A stretch of 64,000 nt of DNA, taken from Candidatus Nitrosopumilus sp. Its GTDB lineage: Archaea; Thermoproteota; Nitrososphaeria; Nitrososphaerales; Nitrosopumilaceae. The position numbers were made by a program, and so were the translations under genes. The notes under the pieces were generated by a model. The model saw only the letters and a program-made list of their open reading frames with translations, ran no database searches and was not told where the DNA came from. This document shows, piece after piece, positions 35,290 to 38,560 of the stretch; position 1 is the stretch's first letter, and each line of letters opens with the position of its first letter. The DNA lies in assembly GCF_028278985.1 (NCBI RefSeq), contig NZ_JANQTA010000018.1, positions 1-64,000 on the forward strand, given 5' to 3'.

Positions 35290-36432
35290 TTAAGAAATTT
35301 TATTTCTAAGTTGCTTAGTAATTGTAACTTCAACGTTTTCAAAAAGAATGATCATCTTTTCTTTATTTTCAATCAAATAGTCGACTCCTCTATCTTTTAA
35401 TCTGATTTTCCATAATCTGATTTCTCGATGTTCATCAAAGAAGTTTTCAATCATATGTTCACCTGATCTTGTTGGATCAATAAACTCTTCAAAAATTTCC
35501 ATTGTCTTTTCTACATCTTCTTCTTCAATTGATTCTTTGACTGATTGAATTGCACTGCTTAATTCTTTGAGATTCTTTACAGGTTTTGGTAATCTCTTTC
35601 TTGTAATTCCAAACAACCCTTTCTTCTCTTTTCCCATTTTTTCTGCAACGTTTGGTGCTAAATCCCAAACCGGAATTCTACTTAGACCATCTCGTTTTTC
35701 ATTTTGAATGATTAATCCTTTTTCTGTTAATTTCTTTAATGCGTTTTCTGCATCAACTTTATCCAAGAATGTTGTCCAAACAATAGAGCCAATAGTATGA
35801 TATCCTTGTCTTACTGATTCTAGTACAACAACTTCTTCAATTCTTTTGAACCCTTCTTCTATTCTAACATTTACAAAATCTTTGTCTCTGATTGATTTTC
35901 TTGCATTCTTTACATCGATTTCAATAGAACGTTTGAGAGCTTCAAGTGATTCTGGAACTTGGTTTAACAAAGAAAGAAAACATGCTTTATTGTACCAAGC
36001 CATTCCATAAGTTGGATCTGATTCAATTGCTTTTTCTGCACAATCAAGTGCCTTTGAATAGTTTTTTTGCTCATAATGTACCAATCCTTTAAGATTCCAA
36101 GCTTCTGGATTTGTAACATCAATATCTAAAATTTTGTCATATACTTGAAGAGCTGCACTGTGATCATCTAAATGGAAATTTGCATATCCTAATTTCATCA
36201 AAGTTTCAACATTATCAGGATCAATTCTTAATGCTTGCTCAAAAACTACAACAGCTTCTTCTAGCTTTTCATCAGCCATTAAATTAATTCCTTTTTTGAA
36301 TAATTTTTTACGATTATAATCTGAATCAACAAGACTTCTTTCTTTAGGAATTGTTGAATCTGGTTTTTCCTCTACTTTTTCTTCAACCTTCTCTTCTTTG
36401 TCCTTTGATTTTTTTCCGAACGGTCTTTTCAC
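35290..36432 (-). CDS. TPR-repeat protein with charged N-terminus
   Basis: 380 residues. A Lys/Glu-rich N-terminal stretch (about residues 1-30) is followed by four TPR units (about residues 40-175) with A/G/P landmarks such as EALRIDPDNVETLMKLGYA. The second half holds a region that looks winged-helix-like (GSIVWTTFL...ALKKLTEKGLIIQ) and a final alpha/beta part. TPRs bind partner proteins; the partner is not known. It is divergent from the collagen-like gene, with a 124-nt shared promoter region. Confidence 0.8.
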   Translation of the reverse strand: MKRPFGKKSKDKEEKVEEKVEEKPDSTIPKERSLVDSDYNRKKLFKKGINLMADEKLEEAVVVFEQALRIDPDNVETLMKLGYANFHLDDHSAALQVYDKILDIDVTNPEAWNLKGLVHYEQKNYSKALDCAEKAIESDPTYGMAWYNKACFLSLLNQVPESLEALKRSIEIDVKNARKSIRDKDFVNVRIEEGFKRIEEVVVLESVRQGYHTIGSIVWTTFLDKVDAENALKKLTEKGLIIQNEKRDGLSRIPVWDLAPNVAEKMGKEKKGLFGITRKRLPKPVKNLKELSSAIQSVKESIEEEDVEKTMEIFEEFIDPTRSGEHMIENFFDEHREIRLWKIRLKDRGVDYLIENKEKMIILFENVEVTITKQLRNKIS

Positions 36433-36556
36433 TAGCTCAAAATGCGATTTAATCTAGATAAATACTATCCCTCGCGAGCCTAATGCTGTCCATGCGTAAA
36501 ATAGAATCTATTTTTGCGATCTAAATACAGAAATACTTGGAATATACACAAACGAT

Positions 36557-38179
36557 GTGTCATCTCAGTCACGAATAGAAATCCAAGGACAGGCACCATT
36601 CAAACAATCTGGTGTCTATGAAGCACAAATTGCCATTGCTGAAAGCAAACCTTCTGATGATGCAATTAAAACAAAACAATTCCAATCATTATGGCGAGGA
36701 AACTATCATCTTAGAGTCAAAGATGGAACCTTTACTGAAACACTTGGTTCTCCTGATAATCCTTTACCATCTTCAATTGAAAATCTTGATAAAATTTGGG
36801 TTATTGTAACTGATCTATTTTCTGCACTAAATTCTGTATTTGAAGTTCCATTAGCAAGACCTGGAAAAGAATCAAAACCAGCACCAACTCCAAAACCTGA
36901 AACAAAAACTACTGAGACACCAAAACCAAAACGAACAACAAAAACTGTTTCATCTCAAGGAGTAGCAGGTCCACCCGGTGACAAAGGTTCTCCTGGACAA
37001 CAAGGTCCAGCTGGAGATAAAGGTCCTATGGGTCCACCGGGGCAACAAGGTCCACCAGGACCAAAAGGTTCTGAAGGTCCAAAAGGTCCACCCGGTGACA
37101 AAGGTCCAACTGGAGACAAAGGATCTTCTGGTGACAAAGGTTTAGCTGGTGAAAGAGGTCTTACTGGCGATAAAGGAATTACTGGTGACAAAGGTGACAA
37201 AGGTGATAAAGGAATTACTGGTCCTCCTGGAGAAAAAGGAGAGAAAGGTCCAACAGGACCAATTGGCGATAAAGGTCCAGGCGGATTAAAAGGTCCTCTT
37301 GGAGAAAAAGGAGAGAAAGGTCCAACAGGTCCACCCGGTGATAAAGGAGTTTCTGGTTTACGTGGTCCTCCTGGAGAAAAAGGAGAGAAAGGTGCAGCTG
37401 GTCCAGCTGGCGATAAAGGATTAACAGGTCCTGCAGGTCCACCCGGAGAAAAAGGTCCGACCGGACAAGCAGGTGTTCAAGGTGAAAAAGGAATTCAAGG
37501 AGGTCCTGGACCCATTGGAGAGAAAGGTCCAGTTGGTTCACAAGGTGATAAAGGTCCTAATGGTCCACCAGGTCCTCTTGGCGATAAAGGATTAACAGGT
37601 CCAACAGGTCCACCCGGTGATAAAGGTCCTATCGGTCCACCCGGTCCAATTGGAGAAAAAGGAAACAAAGGTCCTGAAGGACCAATTGGAGAAAAAGGTC
37701 CACAAGGTCCACAAGGTCCTGCAGGCTCTAAAGGATTAACAGGAGTTCCAGGTCCACAAGGAGAGAAAGGTGACAAAGGTGCAACTGGTCCTGTAGGAGA
37801 AAAAGGATTAACAGGTCCAACAGGTCCACCCGGTGATAAAGGTCCTATCGGCCCACAAGGTTCACAAGGTGAAAGAGGTCCTGCCGGTCCATCGGGAGAA
37901 AAAGGTCCACAAGGTCCACAAGGAATTCAAGGTCCACAAGGTGAAAGAGGTCCAACAGGTCCGATTGGTTCTGTAGGTGAACAAGGTTCTGTAGGTGAAC
38001 AAGGTCCTGTAGGTCCAGCTGGTCCAAGAGGTCCACCAGGTCCACCCGGAGAAAAAGGGCCAGCAGGTGGAATGTCTCCAGAACAAAAAGCAATTTTTAA
38101 AGAGTTGTTAGAAATTTTAACAAACAAAAATATTATTTCAACAGAAGAACAAATCAAACTAATGAGTTATCTTTACTAA
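36557..38179 (+). CDS. Collagen-like Gly-X-Y repeat protein
   Basis: 540 residues from a GTG. Residues 1-100 form a folded domain of unknown family with aromatic strands. Residues 100-134 are a Pro/Lys/Thr linker. Residues 135-503 are 123 uninterrupted Gly-X-Y triplets, rich in GPP, GDK, GEK and GPT. A 37-residue helical tail follows. The frequent KGD/KGE and GEKGEKG patterns give the inter-chain salt bridges that stabilise bacterial collagens without hydroxyproline. I see no signal peptide or sorting motif, so its location is unclear. The protein probably trimerises into a rod. The short head and tail may drive trimer registration. Confidence 0.93.
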
Positions 38180-38228
38180 TTTACAAAAATAATTTACAAA
38201 AATAATTTACAAAAATAATTTACAAAAA
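38177..38228. repeat. Four perfect copies of a 13-bp repeat after the collagen-like gene
   Basis: TAATTTACAAAAA is repeated four times, with the stop codon of the collagen-like gene forming the start of the first copy. A partial fifth copy follows. The unit is AT-only apart from one C. It may be simple slippage DNA or a termination region. Confidence 0.95.
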
Positions 38229-38341
38229 TAATTTTAGTTTAGAATCTTTTTTAAAAATAAATGCGCAGTTTACTTTAAGGAAATATTTGAAAAAGGTAAA
38301 CAATTCGCCGTCTAATGACGATTGTTAATTTTTTGACGAGA

Positions 38342-38560
38342 TTATCGTCTTTTTGCTGCTTTTCTCTTTGGAGCGGCTCTGCGTTTAGCTGCCTTTCCCT
38401 TTGGAGCTGCTTTTTTAGCTGCAGTTTTTCTCTTTGGAGCTGCCTTTCTTTTTGCGGCTTTTCTCTTTGGAGCTGCTTTTTTAGCTGCAGTTTTTCTTTT
38501 AGCTGCCTTTCTCTTTGGAGCTGCTTTTCTCTTTGGAGCGGCTTTTCGTTTAGCTGCCAT
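38342..38560 (-). CDS. Lys/Ala/Arg/Pro-rich histone H1-tail-like protein
   Basis: 72 residues built almost only of A, K, R and P with a few T and G, in repeats of the APKRKAA and AAKRK kind. This is the composition of the C-terminal tail of eukaryotic H1 and of small bacterial H1-like proteins (Hc1, AlgP-type). It should bind DNA or RNA in an unstructured state. It starts at ATG 38560. The reverse frame of this repeat is Ser/Cys/Leu-rich and is not a real gene. No other histone gene is in the window. Confidence 0.75.
   Translation of the reverse strand: MAAKRKAAPKRKAAPKRKAAKRKTAAKKAAPKRKAAKRKAAPKRKTAAKKAAPKGKAAKRRAAPKRKAAKRR

Follow-up and report, generated by a model that had tools for sequence, protein, structure and literature searches.

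A collagen-like protein with its own head and tail domains, encoded at a conserved locus of the Nitrosopumilaceae

A collagen-like protein is encoded by a near-universal, single-copy gene at a fixed locus of the archaeal family Nitrosopumilaceae, and its parts follow one another in a constant order: an orphan beta-sandwich head, a linker, a charge-periodic Gly-X-Y rod and a conserved helical-hairpin tail. The best explanation, to which a probability of about 0.5 may be given, is that the protein forms a cytoplasmic homotrimeric rod that acts as a spacer or scaffold and is a core structural protein of the family.

Distribution and inheritance of the gene

In the window (the whole stretch of 64,000 nucleotides from Candidatus Nitrosopumilus sp. 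that was analysed), the open reading frame reported in an earlier note is present at 36557-38179 on the plus strand, with a GTG start and 540 codons for amino acids. The initiator codon, GTG or ATG, lies at a constant place among relatives, several of which have in-frame stops immediately 5' of it. In addition, a TATA-like promoter element, AAATACAGAAATACTT (36523-36538, plus strand), has a similar counterpart in most relatives compared, and in these the AAATACARAAATACTT-type stretch is found at a near-constant distance 5' of the start codon. The conserved place, the upstream stops and the spacing of the TATA-like element allow the start codon to be taken as fixed, and the promoter-to-start spacing suggests that the transcript is leaderless or nearly so.

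The head domain was found in 205 of 250 Nitrosopumilaceae genomes, among them 122 of the 131 good ones, and in 22 of 22 genera, nearly always as a single copy per genome, whereas neither the single sequence nor a profile matched the genomes of other families of the order. The search of relatives for the N-terminal domain that the earlier note had proposed led, among the genomes searched, to every genus of one family and to none of the other families of the order. When 84,980 species genomes were scanned with a 7-row alignment (a first, broader alignment was too diverse), 107 relatives were retrieved, the best 80 of which are titled as thaumarchaea of the Nitrosopumilaceae group, including Nitrosopumilus, Nitrosarchaeum, Nitrosotenuis and Nitrosotalea, or as unspecified archaea. 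One relative is titled Nitrososphaeraceae (L146), and its head is 64% identical to that of the window. A collagen-like protein in an ammonia-oxidising archaeon is therefore real, in Nitrosopumilus and its relatives, but it is not the unusual occurrence for which it had been taken.

Eight of the good genomes without a match were examined. In five, the neighbouring TPR gene lies at a contig end or no more than about 220 bp from one; in two others the assembly is devoid of the TPR gene as well, and the last has a different neighbour. As most of these absences are contig ends, and repeats break assemblies at this place, true loss of the collagen gene seems to be rare. One copy, in a single-contig genome (L099:9380-10546, genome G101), is broken by an in-frame stop and an apparent frameshift, and may be a pseudogene or a sequencing error.

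Across genera, the gene order is sulfite reductase, rhodanese, TPR (on the opposite strand), collagen, DRG GTPase, HAD and ArgS; the stretch 3' of the collagen gene varies, and in one genome (L082) the TPR gene is 4.4 kb away from the collagen gene. Distances between heads follow those between the TPR, sulfite reductase, rhodanese and DRG neighbours (Mantel r 0.75-0.87, p 0.001), and the collagen gene has thus been inherited vertically, together with its neighbours, at a fixed locus.

The divergent TPR gene (35290-36432, minus strand) is kept beside the collagen gene but is older, being present also in ammonia-oxidiser families without the head-bearing collagen; a functional clue from this neighbour was therefore rejected. 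In several of the collagen-less families the divergent neighbour of the TPR gene encodes a small protein of about 96-127 amino acids, and in many Nitrosopumilaceae genera this small gene is found on the strand of the collagen gene, 5-45 bp 3' of its stop codon (at 39 loci it lies within 200 bp, at 7 it is more distant). Because the TPR gene and the small gene adjoin in several families without the collagen, the collagen gene seems to have entered between the two at the root of the Nitrosopumilaceae. The small protein of 94 amino acids (MSENREKIDFEMLDY..., in L073 and others) is without a Pfam match, forms an apparent operon with the collagen gene in Nitrosarchaeum, Nitrosotenuis and others, and was not found in the window. 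There, a 13-bp unit (TAATTTACAAAAA) is repeated in tandem without a mismatch, in 4.5 copies (38177-38234), from the collagen stop codon onwards; this repeat was not seen in six relatives compared. It is followed by a Lys/Ala/Pro-rich, histone-H1-like open reading frame (38342-38560, minus strand) built of repeats of about 33/66 bp, and a similar gene occupies the corresponding place in some relatives.

Head, rod and tail

The head comprises residues 2-101 (36560-36859; this and all following parts on the plus strand). An AlphaFold model built from 46 sequences gave a beta-sandwich with a pLDDT of 89.5, which supports the folded N-terminal domain that had been proposed. Relatives of the head were absent from Pfam, PDB sequences, PHROGs, phage records (tblastn) and IMG/VR viral contigs, and Foldseek retrieved nothing at E <= 0.001 from the PDB and viral structures. 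The best fold match, a weak one, is the surface adhesin domain of SgrA from Enterococcus faecium (probability 0.99, E 0.05, TM 0.53), and this modelled likeness is only a lead. A possible likeness of the head to a bacterial domain located ahead of collagen or tail-fibre modules is a further tentative lead. A Lys/Pro/Thr-rich linker of variable length (36860-36958) connects the head to the rod.

The rod (36959-38074) is an uninterrupted Gly-X-Y run over residues 135-506, i.e. 124 triplets or 372 residues including a final GGM; without the latter it is the 123 triplets and 369 residues counted before. It matches the Pfam Collagen family PF01391 with an E of 6e-60 (199 bits against a cut-off of 27.2), and both this score and the preservation of its glycines by selection place the protein among the collagen triple-helix repeat proteins. 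All 94 distinct complete genes contain a single unbroken run, with lengths of 68-163 triplets, a mode of 124 and 10,898 triplets in all. Among 16 relatives of the same length, none of 1984 glycine positions was changed, although 788 of the glycine codons (40%) differed in the third base; 1099 of 3968 X and Y residues (28%) differed. Such a run is not due to chance, and the glycine frame is under very strict purifying selection. In contrast to a loose spacer, a working triple helix requires this constancy, and the rod probably forms a triple helix.

The charges of the rod are ordered. Acids occupy X and bases occupy Y, with a net charge of about zero, and the frequent triplet is GDK/GEK (32 of 124, about every fourth triplet); the KGD and KGE salt-bridge pairs described as frequent in the earlier note number just six. 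From Nitrosopumilus to Nitrosotalea the values are nearly constant (acid in X in 0.27-0.37 and base in Y in 0.30-0.41 of the triplets), and the charge make-up is alike in marine and acid-soil genera, without a shift in the acidophile Nitrosotalea. In the window gene, K/R and D/E recur every 11.8 residues, a period of 3.94 triplets or about 3.4 nm (p 0.0005 by shuffling), and periods of 3.9-4.0 are found in most of the distant relatives, where significance was not reached in each case. DNA repeats of 36 and 72 bp underlie this period, which may be a mere trace of their duplication. Aligned to the window gene, the relatives show numerous internal indels with sizes near 7-8, 15-16 and 23-24 triplets, i.e. 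units of about 72 bp, so that length classes stepped by about 20 triplets, derived from total lengths, were dropped. Likewise, binding of the rod to DNA, whose pitch the 3.4-nm period resembles, was set aside because the rod is neutral overall. The genome gave no match to PF13640, a family of prolyl hydroxylases, in line with the comparison to hydroxyproline-free bacterial collagens in the earlier note.

The tail (34 amino acids, 38075-38176) is the most conserved part by column identity, with 83% over an aligned 40-residue construct. AlphaFold folds this construct into helices at 8-23 and 29-37 (pLDDT 89.5), a helix-turn-helix in keeping with the short helical tail noted earlier. The tail had no match in Pfam or the PDB, and in the searched genomes it was not credibly found anywhere but on these proteins; weak extra matches inside an NAD(P)HX-dehydratase-like gene were taken as chance. 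Its layout resembles that of the SHOCT domain (PMC3581485), which is also C-terminal, about 30 amino acids long and made of two amphipathic helices. The resemblance is one of layout only: the strongly conserved glycine of SHOCT is mostly absent from the collagen tails, none of 34 tails matches the Pfam SHOCT profile, and a SHOCT domain did not oligomerise in one experiment (PMC3581485).

Location and possible role

Most microbial collagens are found outside the cell or on phages. Nevertheless, none of the 94 genes encodes a convincing signal peptide, as had been stated for the window protein, and the single high hydrophobicity value (L077) stems from an upstream extension past the conserved start. 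The secreted collagens of the window's genome and of Nitrososphaeraceae, used as positive controls, gave clear signal-peptide scores. Moreover, LPXTG is absent from the window protein and the relatives checked, and no membrane segment was found in the collagen protein. The lack of an export signal, together with the equal charge pattern in marine and acid-soil genera, favours the cytoplasm, where the protein most likely stays.

A plausible course of assembly can be proposed. Three chains would join via the C-terminal helical hairpin, the predicted trimerisation element, which would also set the register, and the rod would then zip from the tail into a triple helix. With the collagen rise of 0.286 nm per residue, or 0.86 nm per triplet, the 124 triplets would span about 106 nm, and the helix would be stabilised without hydroxyproline by proline and evenly spaced acidic and basic triplets. 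At the far end, three beta-sandwich heads would bind a partner. Such a rod could serve as a stiff spacer or scaffold that is long relative to the cell width of 170-220 nm (cells of Nitrosopumilus maritimus measure 0.17-0.22 by 0.5-0.9 um; PMC4922055).

The main alternative, somewhat less likely than the cytoplasmic reading, is that the trimer is exported without a Sec or Tat signal and forms a stalk or adhesin on the cell surface, with the tail or the head anchored in or under the S-layer and the unanchored end binding to surfaces, cells or S-layer protein. It would be in line with the extracellular work of most bacterial collagen-like proteins and with the weak match of the head (E 0.05) to an adhesin domain, and NmPin, a prolyl isomerase of N. 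maritimus, has been reported between membrane and S-layer, with the export route left open (PMC4922055). As NmPin is reported outside the membrane, and as a missing Sec signal does not preclude other routes, a surface location has some plausibility. A collagen-like protein of Ca. Nitrosotenuis chungbukensis, annotated as an 'LPXTG-anchored collagen-like adhesin', has moreover been reported in transcriptome and proteome and discussed as a surface protein (PMC13037477). However, this assignment rests on a name. The genome of this member of the same family has three collagen open reading frames, including the orthologue of the window gene (L169), the adhesin may be any of the three, and no LPXTG was seen in two of them. 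Further points against a stalk are the missing signal peptides, LPXTG motifs and membrane segments, although other archaeal collagens use ordinary signal peptides, and a charge make-up that does not respond to the acidophilic life of Nitrosotalea.

It is rather unlikely that the cytoplasmic rods build an intracellular collagen cytoskeleton, in which charge-striped trimers, each about 100 nm in length and set apart or bundled through the 3.4-nm repeat, would aid the thin rod shape of the cells. Nitrosopumilaceae are described as rod-shaped (PMC13037477), in contrast to the coccoid Nitrososphaera and Nitrosocaldus (PMC13037477, PMC5797428), and the head is absent from the searched genomes of other families, including those of coccoid description. 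This single evolutionary contrast hints at a possible role in cell shape, but shape has been credited to the S-layer (PMC4922055).

Collagen-like fibres are known from prophages, for example of E. coli (PMC3368898), but it is very improbable that the collagen gene derives from a tail fibre of a virus or phage and was domesticated by the host, e.g., for a contractile or defence particle, as the head module is not shared with viral proteins in IMG/VR contigs, PHROGs or phage records, and the gene has housekeeping neighbours that its inheritance tracks. Just as implausible is a Gly-X-Y stretch without a triple helix, be it a polyelectrolyte spacer that is disordered or a mere side effect of the expansion of 36-bp repeats, for despite the visible 36/72-bp repeats and indels in such units, a spacer of this kind would tolerate loss of glycine (0/1984 against 28% of X and Y residues) and would not explain the preference of acids for X and of bases for Y.

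Relation to other collagens and significance

The streptococcal collagen-like proteins Scl1/SclA and Scl2/SclB and the Legionella protein Lcl (NF038330, NF038329, NF046116) are similar in their long, unbroken, hydroxyproline-free Gly-X-Y runs, their non-collagen flanking modules and their many charged triplets. The window protein differs from them in the lack of a signal peptide and LPXTG, an unrelated head, the helical-hairpin tail and its occurrence as one syntenic copy throughout a family. It scored 236.8 with the NCBIfam model of SclA (cut-off 400), and is thus not a member, and 216.9 with that of SclB (cut-off 325); in none of Sec signal, LPXTG and NCBIfam score does it conform to LPXTG-anchored adhesins of the Scl type.

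Within the order, secreted collagens (L104 of the window's own genome; L224 and L225 of Nitrososphaeraceae) are also archaeal and match Pfam Collagen, but have signal peptides, other end domains and shorter rods (53 triplets in L104, 21 in L224/L055). The second collagen gene of the window's genome (L104:6142-7170, minus strand, contig C8) encodes a signal peptide, 53 nearly uncharged triplets that, unlike the window rod, contain no Lys or Arg, and a different C-terminus, and adjoins two large open reading frames of about 515 amino acids. Relatives also contain other, far longer collagen-repeat frames of 956-2518 amino acids (G246:C1:1255060, G177:C1:815858, G065:C1:1907525). In the literature searched, the window protein is not described, and PMC13037477 is the sole paper to mention a collagen-like protein from a member of the Nitrosopumilaceae. 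Collagen-like proteins as such are already known; the window gene is a separate, family-defining form with its own head and tail.

It should be noted that automatic names such as 'LPXTG-anchored adhesin' may mislead for genes of this kind. Protein engineering could also profit from a collagen whose charges are periodic, which does without hydroxyproline and which has natural modules at both ends. To our knowledge, it would be the first time that a collagen, here a probably cytoplasmic one, can clearly be counted among the core genes of an archaeal family. Few marine organisms are as numerous as the Nitrosopumilaceae. A collagen that occurs once, unbroken, at one locus in nearly all of them, with no export signal and with two orphan end domains, suggests that their cells contain a basic component that has gone unrecognised, so that ideas on how these tiny cells, which have no wall, are organised or stiffened become testable.
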